Shown here: in pieces, positions 23,661-58,544 of the stretch
Layout: each line of letters starts with the position of its first letter
Numbering within the stretch: position 1 is the stretch's first letter
Notes under the pieces: generated by a model
The model's database searches: none
Told to the model about the DNA's origin: nothing
What the model saw: the letters and a program-made list of their open reading frames with translations, nothing else
DNA from: Polytrichum commune
Lineage: Eukaryota; Streptophyta; Polytrichopsida; Polytrichales; Polytrichaceae
Reading direction: 5' to 3'
DNA length: 64,000 nucleotides
NCBI GenBank assembly: GCA_950295325.1
Contig: OX485806.1
Coordinates: forward strand, 17,608,001 to 17,672,000
Position numbers and translations under genes: made by a program

Positions 23661-24049
23661 AACTATAATAAAAAAAAACTTAATCACATGGTTCACCATG
23701 TTTCTTCTAATTCCCTGTCACATGGTCTTAACAGTCATCAATAGTTTCCTCTCTTAGGCTAATTCTTGTCTTTCTTTCTCCTCAATACTCAACATGTCTT
23801 TCATAAGACTTGTTGAAGGTGGAACATTAGATTGCTTGTAGTCAATAGAAATGTAATGGAAGAGACATGAGAAACAAAAAGGTTATAATAAGGGCACAAC
23901 ATAGGTCCAAGATGGATAAGAGTAATCCCATATTATTTGTATGAACCAAGGAAAAGAAGAAAATTAATAAAAGCCAAAGCAAGGAGAGCATGAGATTATC
24001 TCACTCCAAGCATTGTTCATATGCCTTTGTGTATATGTTCTTACTTGTG

Positions 24050-24396
24050 AGGCACCACGGGCCTTGGCTTGGTGGTTAGGCTCATGGCCCCCAATGAGGA
24101 GGTTGTGGGTTCTATTCCCCATGCCGGCGTGGTGCTCACCACCTTAGTCCACCCAACTATGGTGGGGGGTCCTTGGACCTTGTTATATGGGTACCTCAAA
24201 GCCCTATGGGGGGATACCATGTCCGGTATCTTCAAGGCACTAGTGGCTAGCTAGGAACTAGTATAGTGTGTCACTATAGTGTCCATCCTCGAAAGGGGAG
24301 AGTAGTATTGTCCCAGTGTCCCCTTGTCCAGTGGCCATCGGGTTCATTGGCATTACGAACGGACACTTTATTCACGCCGGCCCCTTGTAGACCGGA

Positions 24397-24433
<37 letters not shown>
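24050..24433 (+). mobile_element. tRNA-derived SINE (family A) whose 3' tail matches the LINE at 38.8-40.2 kb
   Basis: A 384-bp element bounded by a perfect 12-bp duplication TTCTTACTTGTG (24038-24049 and 24434-24445). The 5' head is tRNA-like: box A TGGCTTGGTGG at 24065-24075 and box B GGTTCTATTCC at 24108-24118, 43 bp apart. The 3' part from about 24240 (CACTATAGTGTCCATCCTCG, then AAAGGGGAGAGTAG, CATTGGC-like, ACACTTTATTCACGCCGG and GTAGACCGGAGTTT) aligns in order with 40066-40223 of the LINE 3' UTR. It ends in a (CT)n run rather than poly(A). It encodes no protein and would depend on LINE reverse transcriptase. Family assignment beyond this window is not possible by eye. Confidence 0.88.
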
Positions 24434-24437
<4 letters not shown>

Positions 24438-24790
24438 TACTTGTGGATTCTCATCTCTAGTCATGTTGACTTCCAATAAGTTATGGGCCCATACATGTGA
24501 AATGCCTAGAGATTTGATTGCTTTGAGGTTGTGGAGTGGATCTTGAGGGTTTGATACTTTGGAGCTCAAAGTGTTGGAGGTGTTCGAAGGCACATTTGGT
24601 TGTTGTGAGAGTTTCTTTGTCATTTGCTTTTGCTTGAATGTATGTTTGATGCAAGAACATGTGACTTGAATAGCTTGAGTGTTTAAACTTCAAGAGCATC
24701 TAATTTGAGAGGCTTGAATGTTGAGGCGTTTATTTGAAAGCACTTCGAAAGCATATGATTTGCTTATTTTGAGTGGTTTAAAGCTTATAT

Positions 24791-26115
24791 ATGATCACTG
24801 CTTTGGAATTCATGCCGATGAAAGAGTTGATGATGGAGTACGTGACCGCACGTTTGATGCATGAGATGTCGAAGGGCAAGGAGAACAAACCCCAAGACGA
24901 AGACACAACGATGGTATTGCGTCAAAGTAAAGCAGGAGATCCACCTTCGTGGCAAGGCGTAAGGACGTGTTTCTATTATGGTAAACCAGGCCACATTGCA
25001 CGATTTTGCTACAAAGCAAAGAATAAAGATAGGGAGCATGCCAAAAATGCGAACGACAAGCACAAATTTGTATTTGTAACGCAACACGGAGCGCATTCAA
25101 GGAGCGTTTATAAATGAATTATGGATGCAAGAGCCGCAAAACATATGACTTTGCATAGGACGGCATTCGATACCTTCGAGGTAATTTCTCCACACAACAT
25201 GCATTTAGGTAATGATAGTGTAGTCGAAGCCATTGGATTGGGATCCATTGTTGTTGGAGTTGAAACGAGAGGCATAAGGAATAGAGTTCGCATTATAGAT
25301 GTGTTTCACGTGCTCAAATTGCAAGCCAACTTGCTCTTGATAAGCATGTTTTTGTCGAATAGGTTGAAGGTGCAATTTCTTGCAAAAGAGTGCATTGTAG
25401 AAGGTGCAAATGGCGACATGGTTGCAATAGCTCAATGCAAAGGAAAATTGTACCAAATGACTTTCATAGAGGTATGTAGAGCGAATGCAACCAACATCGT
25501 GTGTTCACGTGTGGGAGGTGGTCTAGTGAAGCTTTGGCATCGCTGACTTGGTCATTTGAATGTGAGGAGTGTTTATGCACTCCAAAGCATGGTAAGGGGC
25601 ATGAATCTGGGTAAAACCTTTCGTCCAACCTTAACATTGGTTTGCAAAGTGTGCATGGAGGTCAACCAATATGTGGCAAAATTGGGCAATGATGCGGAAA
25701 GGCAAGCAACAAAATCCTTAGAGATTGTTCATTTGGATGTTCATGGCCCAATGAAGAATATGTCTATAAAAAGGGAATTTTTCTTTTTCTTTTTATTGAT
25801 GATTTTTTGAGGAATGTGTAGGTTTACATGATGAAATACAAAGGAGAGTGGTTTGAGAGGTTGAAAGAGTTCCGAGCGTTTGTAAAAACGCAATCGGAGT
25901 ATGAAGTCAAGGCATTTCAATGATTGACCGGAGGGGACTCCATTTCAAAAGATTTTGAAGTGTTTTGGATGAATGAAAGTGTCAAGCGGACGACAGCGTA
26001 TACAGATGAAGGCGTAAGTGGATGATGACGTATACGGATGAAGACGTCGAGCAAATGAAGTTGTGTATGGATGGCAATGCATACGGATGAAGGCATCAAG
26101 CAAATGAAAGTTGAA
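24791..26115 (+). mobile_element. broken Ty1/copia polyprotein relic (gag zinc knuckle, protease, integrase)
   Basis: Plus-strand remains in canonical copia order. A gag end has a zinc-knuckle CFYYGKPGHIARFC (about 24970), with the second cysteine changed to tyrosine. A stop at 25115-25117 is followed by MDARAAKHM where copia protease normally has a DSGA/C active site, so the catalytic serine and glycine are lost. A pre-integrase segment follows, with LWHR, a stop, then LGHLN (about 25532-25563). An integrase core begins with LDVHGPM; IDDF and several stops follow. Blocks VYMMKYKG and GGDSISKDFE near 25830-25960 match the integrase second half in one frame. Reverse transcriptase, RNase H and LTRs were not found. 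An old, 3'-truncated, inactive copy. Confidence 0.82.
25981..26115 (+). repeat. local tandem expansion inside the copia integrase remnant
   Basis: About three imperfect units of roughly 35-45 bp around ACGTATACGGATGAAG and GTCAAGCAAATGA. The first unit still reads TAYTDEG, matching the integrase KR..TAYT region, so the amplification happened after the copia inserted. Confidence 0.65.
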
Positions 26116-27794: not shown

Positions 27795-29340
27795 GTCAAC
27801 TCCACAATCATAAACCCTTTACAACAAACACAACGTGACAGGATAACATAACCATCCATATACATAACTCATCCTCAACCCACCATAAAACCATATAGGG
27901 TCAACATAATTGATAAATTGATAGAAACCCCCAAAAGAACACCCCCTATCCTTACCCTCCAAACTTAACCCCTCCCACAAATATTTTACCACCCATGCCT
28001 ATGTAAACTTGACCCATCACACAACACCTACATAGATGGATCTTTCATTTCCCCATGTAGCAACTTAGATAGTCAAGAGTGTGTAGCCCACACAATAATT
28101 TTCAAATTGCCAAAAGACTACTAGGCTTCCAAAACACACTATGAGCAAAACTATATGCCATATGGCCAACATTGTTAACACTCAAAATTCAACCCAAGAT
28201 GTACACGTCTTCAACAACAACCTCAATAACATACACCTCATTAGCAATTACACACAATGCCCATCATCACAACATCATCACCCTAACAAACTCCTCATAG
28301 CCTTCATGGTACATTACATGACGTGGGCCAAACACAAGATCACCATTCATAAAGTCAAAGCACACACAAAAATGATAGGAAATGAATTTCAAACACACTA
28401 GTCACTGACAAAAGCCACCATCTCTCCCATCCCGCATACACACATGGCACACACTATCCCATATAGATTCACACTTCCCATATGTCCTTCAGGCACTAAT
28501 CCAACTGAAATCTATGCAATCTCCACTCCTTCATCAACAAAGAACATAACATATTTACAATTGCGTATGCCAAAAAAAATTCAATATGTGGAAATATGGG
28601 TAACCAATGAAGAAATACACCCCAAACTCTAATTATTTCTAGAAAACAAAACAATCCACAAATGCACAAATAACACAACTATTGAAACTTAGATGTGCAC
28701 AATATATGGGCGATTGCCAAAAAAACCTATTCTAGCCCACTAAACACACCAATCCAAACCTCACGCTCTGCCATAAAAACCAAAGAGATATCTGGCCACA
28801 CTTGCTATCCACATATGCATTTAAATTCCTCAAAGGTCTCAAAATAGCAACAACCCATCAATCACAAATCTTCTCAAATCTTACACACACACCAAACACT
28901 TACATTAACCAACCTTGGCAATTGCCATGGCACCACTCAAGATAACATTATACCCCCATGGATATTTACAATATGATTATCACAATACATGATGTACATG
29001 CCTAGGAAACCTCCAACTATAGATTTGAACCAACCACGTACCAGGAGATACATATGATCAACCAAGCCTCATATGCCCAACCTTGTACCACAATATACAA
29101 ATTACATAATTCACATTTACCCATGATAGATACAATGAACAAAATATATAAACAAAATAAGACAAATATAACCCACTAATAGATGCAATCAAAGCACAAG
29201 TATGGCAAGTTGAACCTCTTATTGTCATCACAGCAGGAGTTAGAAAGGAAATCCACACTAAAAGCATTAACCTACTAAAAGAGATCTCCACATCCCACTC
29301 CCACTAATCAAAAACATCATTAAAGAATACACCAATCAAT
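26930..29340 (+). mobile_element. old, degenerate LINE copy (same family as 38.8 kb)
   Basis: C/A-rich plus-strand DNA with many frameshifts. Recognisable fragments in order: an RNase H-like IDGSF near 28035; KITIHKVKAHTKMIGNE at 28336-28386, matching PITLYKVRAHVNIDGNE of the younger copy; and near the end DKYNPLIDAIKAQVW and EPLIVITAGVRKEIHTKS (about 29160-29270), matching KYKPLIDSIAARGW and DPLIIITAGARATTHTPS. A (CA)n run at 27749-27792 interrupts it. The 3' UTR is missing, and a hAT-like MITE lies just downstream. It is longer than the 38.8-kb copy and might preserve decayed reverse transcriptase upstream of 28000, which I could not read reliably. Confidence 0.7.
27749..27792. repeat. (CA)n microsatellite
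   Basis: About 22 CA units within the degenerate LINE. Confidence 0.95.
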
Positions 29341-29360: not shown

Positions 29361-29767
29361 CACGGGGAGGTCACTCCATTGTCAAATTGAACACCACGTG
29401 CGAACAAAAAAAATCTACTTTTTACATAAAGCATCACCAAAATGGGTCAAATTTTTATCAATTGTATATCATGGGTAGATATACACGGTATCTATCCCAT
29501 CGTAAAAAATGGTAACCAAATTTGATGATTTCTTTTTTTATAAAACATACCGTTTCTAACTAGAATGACACATGATTGAACTAAAATAATTACTACAAAA
29601 ATGAAGGTGACTAAAAATTTCAAAAGAATATACAAAAGATACTATCAATGGTTATGTATATGTAGAAAAATATCATAAATTTAAAATTATCTATGGCATG
29701 TAATATAGGGGTAGCAAACTTTGTTCGCACGTGGTGGTCAACTTGACAATGGAGTGACCTCCCCATG
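29361..29767. mobile_element. hAT-like MITE, GGGGAGGTCACTCC ends
   Basis: A 407-bp element with inverted ends of about 45 bp (CACGGGGAGGTCACTCCATT and its partner), continuing through TGTCAA and CACCACGTGCGAACAAA. Flanks AACACACC (29353-29360) and AACATATC (29768-29775) agree at 6 of 8 positions with two C/T changes, consistent with an aged 8-bp duplication. Its outer GGGGAGGTCACT and inner ACGTGCGA words tie it to 9297-9919. Confidence 0.82.
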
Positions 29768-35262: not shown

Positions 35263-35399
35263 TAGGATTTGGAACTCATAGAAGTAGAAGGATAGTGGAA
35301 TTAAGTAGTGATTTAGTAGGGGATTTAGTGGAATTATTATAATTAGGTAAGGGGATTAGTTACGGAACTTATGGTGTTAAGAGGTTGAATTTATGGTTA

Positions 35400-35875
35400 G
35401 GGGAACTATTGATTTCTACTTAGTAAGCTGTTGGTTGCAGTCGGAAGGAGCTACTGATTTTCTACTGAATAAGCTGCTGGTTGTAGTCGGAAGGAGCTAC
35501 TGATTTTCTACTGAGTAAGCTGCTGGTTGCAGTCAGTTGGGAGCTATTGATTTCTACTCAGTAAGTTGTTGGTTGCAGTCGGAAGCTGCTGGTTGCAGTC
35601 AGTTGGGAGCTACTAATTTCTACTTAGTAAGCTGTTGGTTGCAGTCAGTTGGGAGCTACTGATTTCTACTTAGTAAGCTGTTGGTTGCAGTCAGTTGGGA
35701 GCTACTGATGTCTACTTAGTAAGCTGCTGGTTGCAGTCGGAAGGAGCTACTGATTTTCTACTTAGTAAGCTGCTGGTTGCAGTCGGAAGGAGCTACTGAT
35801 TTTCTACTGAGTAAGCTGCTGGTTGCAGTTAGTTGGGACTCAGCTACTGATTTCTACTTAGTAAGCTGCTGGTTT
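35400..35875 (+). repeat. tandem array, about 56-bp unit, 8-9 copies
   Basis: Each unit contains GCTACTGATTT(T)CTACT, then (T/G)AGTAAGCTGCTGGTTGCAGT. Two variants alternate, one with CGGAAGGA and one with CAGTTGGGA after the GCAGT. The array is non-coding and has no relatives elsewhere in the window. Confidence 0.88.
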
Positions 35876-35879
35876 TACA

Positions 35880-37290
35880 TTTGGGGAGTGGCTGGGGTTA
35901 TAGCTCGGAGGGTTACATGAGGATTAAGTTCACATTATACGGGGTTGGTTAATGAGTAAAGGGATAGGGAGACTAAACTAGAAACTTAACTCCTTAAGAA
36001 ATTAAGGAGGGAAGAGGTTCCTAACATGCAAAAGTGTGACATAAGGGAACAATCTTTAAGTAAATATTGGAGTGTTGAGTTTTGAATCAGTGTGGGGAGA
36101 TGGGACTACTTGTGAAGAGTATTTTTTAATACTTGTACTTTTATCATGGAATAAATTGGTGTGTAAAAGTTGATGGAGAGTGAAATGGATTTTTATGAAT
36201 TTGGTAAGAGGTAGGATGTAAGCATGAATGTGGTACCCATACCCTCACCCGGACTAGGACGCTTAAGGGTGGGCGGTTTGGCCTCACACCAAGCCAACAA
36301 CAATATTTTCCATTCAGCGCGTTAATTAATGATGAACTAAGAAATATAAATTCAAAATATGCTATATGGCAAACATAGTAGAACATCTCTCACATGTTAT
36401 TGACATCCATAACATTACTCAGCTAAAGAGTTGTGTTCACGGGTTCGGCATCAAATTTGGAGAATAAAGACTTTGAATGTTGAAATTCCAATGTTTCAGA
36501 CTATACCTAAAGTCAAGGTAGTTGAACATAGCTCATTAGCTGAGCAATGTTATGTCACCTCAAGTGTTGTTAATTATGATAGTTTCTACTGTACTATCAC
36601 TTTTTTTTATATATATATATATTTTACACTCTTAGAAGTCATGAACTTTTTGGTATATTTTGAGTCAAGAATTTTGATAATAAGTTTTAGCTATAGAAGA
36701 GGCTTGTGATTTGCGGCAAATTCATCTCAAGTTAATCCCAGTGCACAATTTATGGTATTAAATGGTAGGGGCTTAATATCGTCACTTACTCTATTCCTAG
36801 GTTACACTAATGACCAACAAAACGATCATTAGCATGACCATGTGTCGCTTGCCATTATCATGCTAAATAATATCTTCCTCTTTGCCTTCTTTTCCCGCGG
36901 GGAGGGGGGGGGGGTTCAAGTGACACTTGTCGTTATTGTGCTCAAATTACCTTCTTGCATATTACAACATAAAATTATCATCTCAAGGACTCCAATATGT
37001 TGCACTAAATGCCAGAATGGAAAATTATCATTCATTTCAAAAATCACTTATGTTGGCAAATAGTGTTGTGTTGACAATTAAAGGTCTCTAACAACAACCT
37101 GATTTGGATTGTCTGCCAACAATGTATGTGACAATATGGTACTATAAGTCGTGTAGATTAATTGAGGGTCTTCATTTCTAATTATAGGATCATACCAACT
37201 ATTAAAAAAAGGAAAAAAATCCCCAACATTTCCTAATTTCAACTTACATGACCGTCATTATTCCATGAACTTCAAGGCGACATTGTATAA
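35880..37290. other. stretch without recognisable genes
   Basis: An isolated CACAATTTATGGTATTAAAT block near 36740, followed by TAGGTTACACTAATGACCAA at about 36800, resembles 38715-38790 and may be a fragment of the TA-flanked MITE family with its neighbour. A G-run lies at 36903-36915. Otherwise nothing is recognised. Confidence 0.45.
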
Positions 37291-38782: not shown

Positions 38783-39949
38783 ATGACCAATATATTGACC
38801 ATAAGTGTACTTCAAAACCGGACACAACCAATCACACTATACAAAGTTAGAGCACATGTCAACATTGATGGCAACGAACAAGCAGACAAATTGGCAAAAG
38901 AAGGGCTAGAACTAGAGCACAAAATTGCCATTCACCCATATGAGCATGCCCATGCCATCCCATACTACTACCAAAAGGACGTTTGGGCCTCAATGACAGA
39001 CGTTCCCGATAAAGGCCCCGTTAGATTCCTAGAAAAACAAATTATTAAATACGATAGGGAAAACAACTTGGAAAACATGGCCACACAAACCCCCAACACT
39101 TACAAATGGACAGGAAATGCAGATATAGATAAAGAACTTTCTAACGAATTCTGGGAAAACCCGGGAATCACGGATAAACAAAAATCATGCCTCATCAAAT
39201 TCCGAACAGGAACCTATATGGGCAATGCTCGAAAACAACTGTTCTTTGGTAGACAAATATATCCCTCTATTACATGCCCCATTTGCACCTCATACGAACC
39301 GGACACATGGTTACATGTACTACTTACGTGTAAACAACAACATATACATTCACTCCACGTCAAAAGACACAACAAAGCAGTATGGGAAATTAGGAAACTA
39401 CTAATCTCATCTGAAAAATCTCGATGTTATATTCTCATGAACGCGGGCACCTTCAATAATACACCCCAGGAAAACACCGTTCCCAATTGGCTACTCCCTT
39501 GCACATGCGGTACACAAAGATGCCATTGTAACTCCAGATTCAGACCTGACATCCTTTGTGTTAGAGGATTTCCATACCAAAATGACCCCCCCACAGACTT
39601 GGACCCCAACCTCACCATACAATTTATCGAATTTACATACTGTAATGATAGATTCTCTCCAAAAACACTCGAAACAAAAAATAACAAATACAAACCATTA
39701 ATCGATAGTATTGCTGCTAGAGGATGGAAAATTGACCCCCTTATTATAATCACCGCTGGCGCTAGAGCCACTACACACACTCCTTCAATGAAATCACTCG
39801 AAAATAAATTTAAAATACCCATGCCTATCATTAAAAATACCTTTAAAAACATCAATACTATCGCTATAACATATGCCATGGCTATCCTCCTACACAAAAG
39901 AAGAATAGAAAACCACCAACCACTACCCCAAACACTAGACCCCCCATAG
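38783..39949 (+). CDS. LINE ORF2 C-terminus: RNase H end, zinc finger, restriction-like endonuclease-like domain
   Basis: A 388-codon open frame; its first nine codons are host flank read in frame, so the true LINE part starts near codon 10. Residues 16-41 are the end of an RNase H fold (LYKVRAHVNIDGNEQADKLA: catalytic-loop H25 and last acid D35). A C-C-H-C finger follows at C165, C168, H178 and C183, then a second cysteine cluster (C240, C242, C247, C249). Directly after it come RFRPDILCV (P255-D256), FIEFTYC (E283) and NKYKPLIDSI, then PLIIITAGARATTH. A CCHC finger followed by PD, an acid and a KY-PL helix is the layout of the restriction-like endonuclease of R2-type LINEs. In the element it would nick target DNA for reverse transcription. 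Not expressed as a whole protein here because reverse transcriptase is missing. RNase H is solid; the endonuclease call is by motif only. Confidence 0.8.
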   Translation: MTNILTISVLQNRTQPITLYKVRAHVNIDGNEQADKLAKEGLELEHKIAIHPYEHAHAIPYYYQKDVWASMTDVPDKGPVRFLEKQIIKYDRENNLENMATQTPNTYKWTGNADIDKELSNEFWENPGITDKQKSCLIKFRTGTYMGNARKQLFFGRQIYPSITCPICTSYEPDTWLHVLLTCKQQHIHSLHVKRHNKAVWEIRKLLISSEKSRCYILMNAGTFNNTPQENTVPNWLLPCTCGTQRCHCNSRFRPDILCVRGFPYQNDPPTDLDPNLTIQFIEFTYCNDRFSPKTLETKNNKYKPLIDSIAARGWKIDPLIIITAGARATTHTPSMKSLENKFKIPMPIIKNTFKNINTIAITYAMAILLHKRRIENHQPLPQTLDPP

Positions 39950-40223
39950 ATAAAGCCATAAAACCTTAACAACTAAGCCACTCCACCCCACCCACTAACA
40001 ATGCACTAGAGACCTGGCGACCCAAATCATACTAACAATCCTCCCTAACAACTAACCATTTTGGTTCTTGTTACTAGTGACTGGTGACTATAGTGTCTAC
40101 TCTCGAAAGGGAGGAGTAGATCTTTACCTTCATACCTTTGTCCTGTGGGCATTGGATGGAGGAGGATCGAACATACACTCCATTCACGTCGGTCTCCTCC
40201 GGAGACCGAAGTTTTTCTTCTTC
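38810..40223 (+). mobile_element. young 5'-truncated LINE insertion
   Basis: A 1,414-bp retrotransposon fragment bounded by a perfect 14-bp duplication TGACCATAAGTGTA (38796-38809 and 40224-40237). It begins in the middle of an RNase H domain, as expected from incomplete target-primed reverse transcription, and includes the open C-terminal coding region and a 3' UTR of about 270 bp. Near the end CGGTCTCC and GGAGACCG form an 8-bp stem with a TCC loop at 40189-40207. The element ends in TTTTTCTTCTTC rather than poly(A). The last ~160 bp match the tail of the SINE at 24050-24433. The perfect duplication and open frame imply recent insertion. Confidence 0.9.
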
Positions 40224-40237
40224 TGACCATAAGTGTA

Positions 40238-42084: not shown

Positions 42085-42502
42085 CGGATCACTCCACGCT
42101 CGACCCCACGGCCGTCACCATCCAATTGTGAGAGCCCAAGACACCTCCAGGATCGTGTCGTGTGGTCACGGGCCCTCAGCTAATGCAATTTCAATGAATT
42201 TCTAACCATGCGGGGTTAAAAATGTAGTAAATCGACGGTTGTGAGGTTTGAGAGTGCCGAGGTCTCCCGGTGTTGTGTTAGGCCTACCTCCAAGAGACGG
42301 TTTTTGAAAGTAGTCCAAGTGAGCATGAAACATGATCCATTGGATGCCATGTGGGAATCCGTGTGGACTTTACATCCATCTTGCATTCACTTACTCCTTT
42401 TGTCCCTCAAGCAAACTTGGGCTGGCTTCTCCGCCTTCTCCGCCAATGAGGGTGCTTGAAGTGCAATAGTCACGGGCCCTCAGTCTCCTGTGTGAAGAGT
42501 GG
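42085..42502. mobile_element. R2 element copy feeding a tandem array
   Basis: Aligns with 37693-38202 through CAATTGTGAGAGCCCAA, CATGCGGGGT, TTGTGTTAGGCCT, AGTCCAAGTGA, GACTTTACAT and CACGGGC-CTCAGTCTC. The left end is degraded. The right end (CTGTGTGAAGAGTGGCCC) runs straight into the tandem array. Confidence 0.65.
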
Positions 42503-43205
42503 CCCTTAGTTATGATGTTAGTTGCCTGCGGCAGCACACACAACTTGATCATGAGGCTCAACCTTGAAATGCAATGGTCACGGGCCCTCAGCCTCCTGTG
42601 TGAAGTGGCCCTTAGTTATGATGTAAGTTGCCTGCGGCAGCACACACAACTTGATCATGAGGCTCAACCTTGAAATGCAATGGTCACGGGCCCTCAGCCT
42701 CCTGTGTGAAGTGGCCCTTAGTTATGATGTAAGTTGCCTGCGGCAGCACACACAACTTGATCATGAGGCTCAACCTTGAAATGCAATGGTCACGGGCCCT
42801 CAGTCTCCTGTGTGAAGAGTGGCCCTTAGTTATGATGTAAGTTGCCTGTGGCAGCACACACAACTTGATCATGAGGCTCAACCTTGAAATGCACTGGTCA
42901 CGGGCCTTCAGCCTCCTGTGTGAAGAGTGGCCCTTAGTTATGATGTAAGTTGCCTGCGGCAGCACACACAACTTGATCATGAGGCTCAACCTTGAAATGC
43001 AATGGTCACGGGTCCTCAGTCTCCTGTGTGAAGAGTGGCCCTTAGTTATGATGTAAGTTGCCTGCGGCAGCACACACAACTTGATCATGAGGCTCAACCT
43101 TGAAATGCACTGGTCACGGGCCTTCAGCCTCCTGTGTGAAGTGGCCTTTAGTGATGTTAGTTGCCTGCAGCAGCACAGACAACTTGGTTGTGAGGCTCAA
43201 GTTGG
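42455..43205 (+). repeat. tandem array, 106-108-bp unit, seven copies
   Basis: The landmark GTTGCCTG(C/T)(G/A) recurs at 42521, 42627, 42733, 42841, 42949, 43057 and 43160, so the period is 106 or 108 bp except for the last, shorter unit. The 2-bp difference is an AG in GAAGAGTGG versus GAAGTGG. Each unit joins the R2 3' end (GTCACGGGCCCTCAG, GTGTGAAGTGGCCC) to about 62 bp of former flank (GCAGCACACACAACTTGATC). A minus-strand frame of four 36-residue repeats results from the 108-bp period and is not a gene. Confidence 0.92.
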
Positions 43206-43246
43206 GTGGGCCAAGGCAATGAACGTTGTGTGTTTATTTTCACCCG

Positions 43247-57975: not shown

Positions 57976-58010
57976 TAGTTAATTAGCAGCTGAGCTCATG
58001 ACAAACTTAC

Positions 58011-58356
58011 CGTTGCAGACATAGCCAGCCTTGTAGTTGAGGTTGCATTTCTGGGGGATCTGGACGGCGAGCTGCGGCTTGGCCCCTGCGGCCGTTGCCG
58101 TGGGGTTGCTGATGGCCTGGCACAGGCAGGTCTGGCCGTCGGGGGTGCCGCCCTGGGCGAAGTTGGCCATGGCCTGGCAACAGCTGGGCGTGGGGTTCAC
58201 TCCCGGATTCTTGGCCGCGGGCAGGCAGCTGATGAGCGTGTTCACGTTCCCGCAGGCCGCCCCCGCTTCGTCCACAATCGCCATCGCCACCAACGTGGCC
58301 ACCAGCACCCCCACTGCGGCCCTGCACTGCCCACCCGCCATGACCTTCATCCCCAT
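58011..58356 (-). CDS. non-specific lipid-transfer protein (eight-cysteine), exon 1
   Basis: A GC-rich coding exon for a small secreted protein. From the Met at 58356 (next Mets at 58350 and 58341) a basic start MGMKVMAGGQCR leads into a hydrophobic signal segment (AAVGVLVATLVAMAIV), with likely cleavage before ACGNVN. The mature part has the eight-cysteine signature C-X8-C-X14-CC-X16-CLC-X24-C-X9-C, which forms four disulfides around a lipid-binding cavity. Such proteins bind fatty acyl lipids in the apoplast and serve in cuticle building or defence. An upstream in-frame ATG at 58431 would add a lysine-rich stretch encoded by a 5' UTR GAA repeat and destroy the signal peptide, so I reject it. 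After the last cysteine (GTCTGCAACG) comes GTAAGT, a perfect splice donor in phase 1, at the position where this family often has its intron. If unspliced, the frame would run to 57979. Exon 2 was not found. Confidence 0.88.
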
Positions 58357-58544
58357 CCTTCTCTTCTTCTTCTTCTTCTTCTTCTCCTTCTCCTTCTGCA
58401 AATTGCTAAGTAGCTGCGCAATTCCTCGCAACGGGACCTGGATCTCCGATGCAGCTAGGCTCGATCGATGGAGATCAAGGAGGAGAGCGCGAGTGTGGCG
58501 GCTGTAATAGTAGTGTAGGGAATTGTGGAGTTGAGTAGCCGAGT

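Follow-up and report, generated by a model that had tools for sequence, protein, structure and literature searches.

Stringent LINEs recognize the RNA by its 3' end, frequently a stem-loop, and this end is what their SINEs have in common with them (PMC3747384). A 2013 review lists, in its treatment of tail sharing, three tail-sharing SINE families in land plants, none of them with a Dualen/RandI partner (PMC3747384). The maize and sorghum families ZmSINE2 and ZmSINE3 resemble the system described here in being plant tRNA SINEs that share the 3' end of a LINE (LINE1-1) whose stem-loop carries compensatory mutations; that partner, however, belongs to the L1 clade (PMC3747384), and the LINE described here is unlike plant L1 in its type of RNase H, its C-terminal domain, and the way its 3' end is formed. 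In tobacco, the plant SINE TS likewise has a tRNA origin and carries a LINE tail that does not end in poly(A), but its partner is an RTE element ending in (TTG)n or (TTGATG)n, unlike the present LINE (PMC3747384). Plant L1 elements have an archaea-like RNase H (PMC4640811), and 224 of 233 flowering-plant L1 families end in poly(A) (PMC3747384, Table 3).

The closest described systems are found in a green alga. Dualen/RandI LINEs are defined by the combination of an apurinic endonuclease-type domain (APE), a restriction-like endonuclease (RLE), and RNase H in one element (PMC4640811; PMC3636483), and the Chlamydomonas families SINEX-1, -2, -4, and -5/6 end in RandI/Dualen LINE tails with non-poly(A) repeats (Ohshima, 2013; PMC3747384, Tables 1–2), as the SINE here ends in the tail of a LINE that looks similar. 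SINEX-5/6 is also tRNA-headed (PMC3747384). The likeness is drawn from published descriptions; the algal elements end in (ATT)n or (CTTT)n (PMC3747384), whereas the pair reported here resides in a land plant and has a hairpin backed by covariation. Tail-sharing pairs, and RandI-tailed SINEs in Chlamydomonas, are thus already known. What is new, within the literature searched, is that a land plant has a tail-sharing pair that looks RandI-like and whose hairpin covaries between subfamilies. Nothing on land-plant SINEs with Dualen/RandI tails appeared among the literature matches listed (titles and abstract openings of open-licence papers), which is weak evidence of absence.

A SINE and a LINE in One Window

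The window, a stretch of 64,000 nucleotides from the moss Polytrichum commune (contig OX485806.1, positions 17,608,001 to 17,672,000), contains both elements on its forward strand. The SINE (24050–24433) consists of a tRNA-like head, a body, a LINE-like tail, and a (CT)n end. It is flanked by a perfect 12-bp target-site duplication, TTCTTACTTGTG, at 24038–24049 and 24434–24445, a word with no other occurrence on this strand of the window. The head (24050–24137), delimited by sequence and fold, contains a box A-like element, TGGCTTGGTGG (24065–24075), and a box B-like element, GGTTCTATTCC (24108–24118), each with one mismatch to the RNA polymerase III consensus, and transcription by this polymerase is predicted. 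Its 5' segment GGCACCAC pairs with GTGGTGCT to give an acceptor-like stem of 8 bp in the predicted fold, which has no cloverleaf; ARAGORN called no tRNA in the head, and an Rfam scan of the window at gathering scores gave no match. The body (24138–24269) is followed by the LINE-like tail (24270–24400), which includes a shortened terminal hairpin, CCGGCCCCTTGTAGACCGG (24377–24395), and by the (CT)n repeat (24401–24433), whose length differs among copies. Downstream, at 25118–25807 (+), lie fragments of a Copia-like polyprotein, as judged by eye.

The LINE (38810–40223, +) is 5'-truncated and belongs to a group of copies designated subfamily A. Its 14-bp target-site duplication, TGACCATAAGTGTA, occurs on the forward strand of the window only at 38796–38809 and 40224–40237. 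The retained end of ORF2 (38810–39949), recognized from its open frame, homologs, motif and alignment, and structure comparison, covers the last stretch of RNase H, carries a CX2CX9HX4C motif, and finishes in a C-terminal domain that appears to resemble the RLE of R2 elements; Pfam RNase_H scores 21.6 bits, under the cut-off of 25.8. The 3' UTR (39950–40223) has its tail in common with the SINE from about 40073 and carries a terminal hairpin, TCGGTCTCC-TCC-GGAGACCGA (40189–40209), and TTC repeats (40215–40223). The first-pass annotation had described both elements with these duplications, the two promoter boxes, the LINE hairpin just before the end, and termini other than poly(A), all of which held.

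Several other features of the window were recorded. A decayed relative of the LINE's clade, with many stops and amino-acid identity of up to 44%, lies at 28339–29330 (+), and its end adjoins a MITE-like element of about 407 bp (29361–29767) with 48-bp terminal inverted repeats (94%). Arrays of direct repeats with units of about 108 bp and 46 bp occupy 42383–43242 and 35355–35884, respectively, and a gene for a lipid-transfer protein (LTP_2/Tryp_alpha_amyl; LTP_2 at 40.5 bits) lies at 57982–58431 (−). No third match to the shared tail was found within the window by blastn.

Copies of the SINE Across the Genome

The 408-Mb assembly containing the window was searched with the whole SINE, and the best 40 of 1720 candidates were scored (identity 96–100%); the first 28 of these were read (L001–L008, L059–L078). 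Target-site duplications of 8–15 bp, placed after the tail and repeat, flank 26 of the 28, while L076 has a 6-mer duplication and none was found for L075. Because this set had been picked by its likeness to the entire SINE, a second search used the head and body alone (24050–24249), giving 42 rows from the best 40 of 1023 candidates. The tail was present in all 40 head-selected places, 20 of them newly read (L079–L098), 14 among the 28 read earlier, and 6 assessed by the range of the whole-SINE alignment. The possibility, raised at the outset, that most SINE copies lack the tail was thus looked for and not seen. Median identity among copies is 99.7% (300 random pairs among 48 loci, gaps ignored). 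L087 is a SINE sitting inside another SINE copy, and L091 carries a duplication internal to the SINE.

The window copy has a short hairpin, as the first-pass annotation had noted in calling it a weaker version of that in the LINE. This description fits the window copy and part of the family: in the 34 head-selected loci that were read, the hairpin is long in 23, short in 10, and shorter still in one (L088). Across all 48 SINE loci the corresponding counts are 24, 23, and 1. L001 and L006, both 3.4-kb loci, have the short form, and L091 has the tail with a long hairpin.

The Shared 3' Tail and Its Closest LINE Relatives

Local alignment of the 3' ends of the SINE and the window LINE gave a score of 71 over 159 columns, partly made up of terminal repeats. 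Under a second scoring scheme that left out most of the terminal repeat the score was 54.5, whereas 500 shuffles never gave more than 20 and random segments of the window (up to 500) never more than 19.5, and blastn within the window aligned the two tails at 70% over 137 columns (E 2e-9). An alignment of about 150 bp had been proposed; the computed one covers about 140 bp at 70.7% identity (104 identical positions, 35 mismatches, and 8 gaps), begins at SINE position 24257, and contains all of the shared sequence blocks that had been named.

A second LINE subfamily, B, matches the SINE much more closely. Its tails at four loci are 86.9–88.0% identical to that of the SINE over about 131 bp, from about SINE position 221 to 351, so that this alignment begins only downstream of the body, and few positions differ in the last 60 nt ahead of the repeat. 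The tail of a further subfamily, E (L126, found independently), is 87% identical. A tree of 30 tail rows (28 distinct) places the rows of the SINE together with those of B and E at a support of 95/92, while the A, A', and C rows lie across a branch supported at 100/100 and subfamily D (L125) falls in between. The B and E rows form a group (100/99) that branches from among the SINE rows at weak forks (81/75); the SINE rows are neither one group nor nested within B/E, and the tree therefore gives neither the direction of descent nor the exact donor. A point against the pairing is that the terminal repeats differ, since the SINE usually ends in (CT)n or (CTTT)n and LINE-B in (TATC)n; a point for it is that some SINE copies (L079, L121) end in (TATC)n as LINE-B does. 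The closest sampled LINE tails are thus those of subfamilies B and E, which are sisters of the window LINE's subfamily. The earlier proposal that the SINE was mobilized by the family of the window LINE stands as to the kind of system and requires correction as to the subfamily, with 71% identity to A compared with 87–88% to B and E.

Architecture of the LINE Family

A protein search with the LINE (best 109 of 5961 candidates scored) returned two groups of matches. The first, led by the window copy and mostly 89–95% identical to it, constitutes subfamily A; the second, mostly 84–86% identical, includes LINE-B and LINE-C (L047). Fifty loci were read (L009–L058, of which L042 and L043 duplicate L026 and L035), and in every one of the 50 tails the hairpin is present along with a repeat, either rich in pyrimidines or made of TATC units. 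Repeats of at least 11 bp that could be target-site duplications were found in 9 of 55 tails examined, of which two or more are questionable (L039, where the repeat lies in a microsatellite, and L112); most copies extend past the examined stretch, and a missing duplication consequently says little.

Three LINE-B copies each have a single uninterrupted frame that spans 2625 codons from stop to stop, with pairwise identities of 99.35–99.62%. Upstream of it lies a slightly overlapping frame, truncated at the locus boundary, with up to 528 codons. In LINE-B, Exo_endo_phos scores 19.5 bits, below the cut-off of 24.5, with the ETK, GDFN, and SDH motifs in order. RNase H (PF00075) scores 49.9 bits in LINE-B and 49.1 bits in LINE-A (cut-off 25.8). 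In phmmer comparisons the reverse transcriptase scores 72–112 bits against R2 proteins versus 63–64 bits against LINE-1 ORF2p. The C-terminal region appears to resemble the R2 restriction-like endonuclease in a weak structural model, and Foldseek returned no significant match for it. With its APE motifs, R2-like reverse transcriptase, RNase H, and R2 RLE-like C-terminus, the predicted architecture looks like that of Dualen/RandI, whose combination of APE, RLE, and RNase H (PMC4640811; PMC3636483) it would parallel. Traits of plant L1 elements were not seen: the 50 LINE tails end in CT, TTC, T-rich, or TATC repeats and not in poly(A), and the RNase H match is to PF00075, with RVT_3 not among the matches. 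RVT_3 is the Pfam family that presumably corresponds to the archaea-like RNase H of plant L1.

Two further features are present in the LINE that the passages on Dualen/RandI in the cited accounts do not mention (PMC4640811; PMC3636483). A 2A-like motif, GDIEPNPGP, lies near the N-terminus of ORF2 in six of nine LINE-A and LINE-B loci read for it (L039–L044), and Pfam PCIF1_WW matches ORF2 in L039 and L042 at 33.1 and 36.7 bits (cut-off 31.1). The latter exceeds the cut-off in all 150 genome loci scored (best 150 of 697 candidates) and matched in none of 14 control genomes. This putative PCIF1-related domain would be cap adenine methyltransferase-like; the model of the region is useless (pLDDT 35), with no significant structural match and no sequence match in the PDB, which leaves the Pfam matches. 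Two places picked by PCIF1_WW within long open frames (2919 aa and 2924 aa) both have the tail about 2.3 kb downstream, at the spot predicted from the LINE-B layout. No relative was found in viral contigs at the sensitivity used.

Many LINE-C tail matches start at one query position, which raised the suspicion that another SINE family carries a LINE-C tail. This idea was rejected for the 20 loci concerned (L099–L118), 18 of which encode the LINE C-terminus upstream of the tail and none of which matches the SINE head; the two without a LINE C-terminus are L102, a short copy with a 14-bp target-site duplication, and L117.

Conservation of the Terminal Hairpin

The hairpin lies about 5 nt ahead of a short pyrimidine-rich repeat. 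Covariation was assessed in 47 distinct full hairpins from LINE subfamilies A, B, and C and long-form SINEs; the set did not include L091 or any SINE row with the short form. Of 423 hairpin cells, 93.1% are paired, a level reached in none of 500 shuffles, and pairing falls to at most 62.2% when the partners are slid by one to three columns. Whether tails covary across copies had been proposed as a check, and they do so: double-changed cells number 45, distributed over four pairs, compared with 15.5 in shuffled data (0/500 shuffles), and the covariation score is 0.357 versus 0.232 (0/500). Two of the five measures used are not above shuffles, namely how many pairs have double changes (261/500) and how many pair types occur (375/500). 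The double changes mostly track the splits between subfamilies, and the underlying events may be few. Pair 5 is a C.A mismatch in LINE-B and in all long-form SINEs except L008, whereas rows of A and C have U-A at this pair, as does LINE-E (L126). In two further LINE families, those at the two places picked by PCIF1_WW, the hairpin is built from different letters, CCGGCCTC-GAAA-GAGGACCGG and CCGGTCCCTAAACGGGACCGG.

A 21-base tail pattern, CGAACNNACACTNNATTCACG, has 1593 exact matches in the genome and none for its backward control. Among the 100 matches listed, 57, counted by eye, have the GG..TT form that is usual in the SINE loci read. Six matches with other letters comprise two SINEs, one 5'-truncated LINE-B, two that probably belong to another LINE subfamily, and one short decayed piece.

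The short-hairpin SINEs constitute the main loose end. Their predicted hairpin folds at about −6.5 kcal/mol versus −16 kcal/mol for the long form. These copies are near-identical and have therefore been amplified, so that amplification may not depend strictly on a complete hairpin; either a 4-bp CCGG stem is sufficient or recognition occurs through the flanking tail.

Proposed Relationship and Alternative Explanations

The observations are best accounted for by a stringent SINE/LINE pair, in which the tRNA-headed SINE very probably spreads via a 3' tail of about 130 nt held in common with a LINE lineage of B/E type. That a pair of this kind exists in a plant, as first suggested from the window, is well supported by the genome copies and the covariation. 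Both the SINE and LINE-B have spread recently, since LINE-B ORF2 copies are 99.4–99.6% identical and SINE copies have a median identity of 99.7%. RNA polymerase III would make the SINE RNA, the LINE-B/E-type protein would bind the hairpin in its tail, and the same protein would begin target-primed reverse transcription from the terminal repeat. As to its origin, the SINE may have arisen when a tRNA-like transcript gained a tail from a B/E relative, and the exact donor of that tail may lie outside the sampled LINEs. Mobilization by the LINE reverse transcriptase is an inference from sequence comparison.

It is possible, though rather doubtful, that the SINE was mobilized by an unsampled or extinct LINE lineage, of which B and E are the closest sampled relatives and nothing more. 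SINE and LINE-B tails are about 12% apart, yet copies within each are more than 99% identical, the SINE tails lie outside B/E in the tree, and each LINE search scored the best candidates only, all of which would fit such a lineage. The recent amplification of both the SINE and LINE-B points the other way, as do the small number of differences between them in the last 60 nt ahead of the repeat and the pair-5 mismatch that they have in common in nearly all copies read. An L1-type LINE that uses just the simple terminal repeat, with the tail as a relic, is improbable. Poly(A) ends without any similarity to a LINE are common among the SINEs of flowering plants (PMC3747384), and short-hairpin copies of the present SINE are frequent; against such relaxed recognition stand the lack of a poly(A) end, the retention of the tail in every head-selected copy (best 40 of 1023), and the compensatory changes in the hairpin. 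The abrupt start of LINE-B similarity at SINE position 221 is what might be expected of a separate repeat inserted into both elements, a reading raised early as one that would refute the pairing and one that now has very little to commend it. The target-site duplications enclose head, body, and tail as one unit, no tail with duplications of its own was seen, and the tail accompanies the head in all 40 head-selected places (best 40 of 1023). Moreover, the six tail matches with an odd signature resolve into two SINEs, one LINE-B, two probable members of another LINE subfamily, and one decayed piece, and the hairpin differs by LINE subfamily yet stays paired.

Implications for Tail Recognition and LINE Evolution

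Tail sharing between SINEs and LINEs is the classical evidence on how SINEs hijack LINE enzymes. With the stringent pair as the preferred reading, the more specific picture, which the evidence favors by a modest degree, is of a land plant in which a Dualen/RandI-type LINE serves a SINE that has been active recently; this LINE would have both endonuclease types together with a 2A-like self-separating motif and a PCIF1-related domain, and several of its subfamilies would have kept the 3' hairpin by compensatory change. Its mix of domains bears on the relation between APE- and RLE-type LINEs. The genome offers a young, high-copy pair, with open-frame LINE copies, long, short, and mismatched hairpins, and sister subfamilies with compensatory hairpins, and these natural variants make the enzyme's rule of tail recognition directly testable. 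If the picture is true, RandI-tailed SINEs would extend from green algae to land plants.
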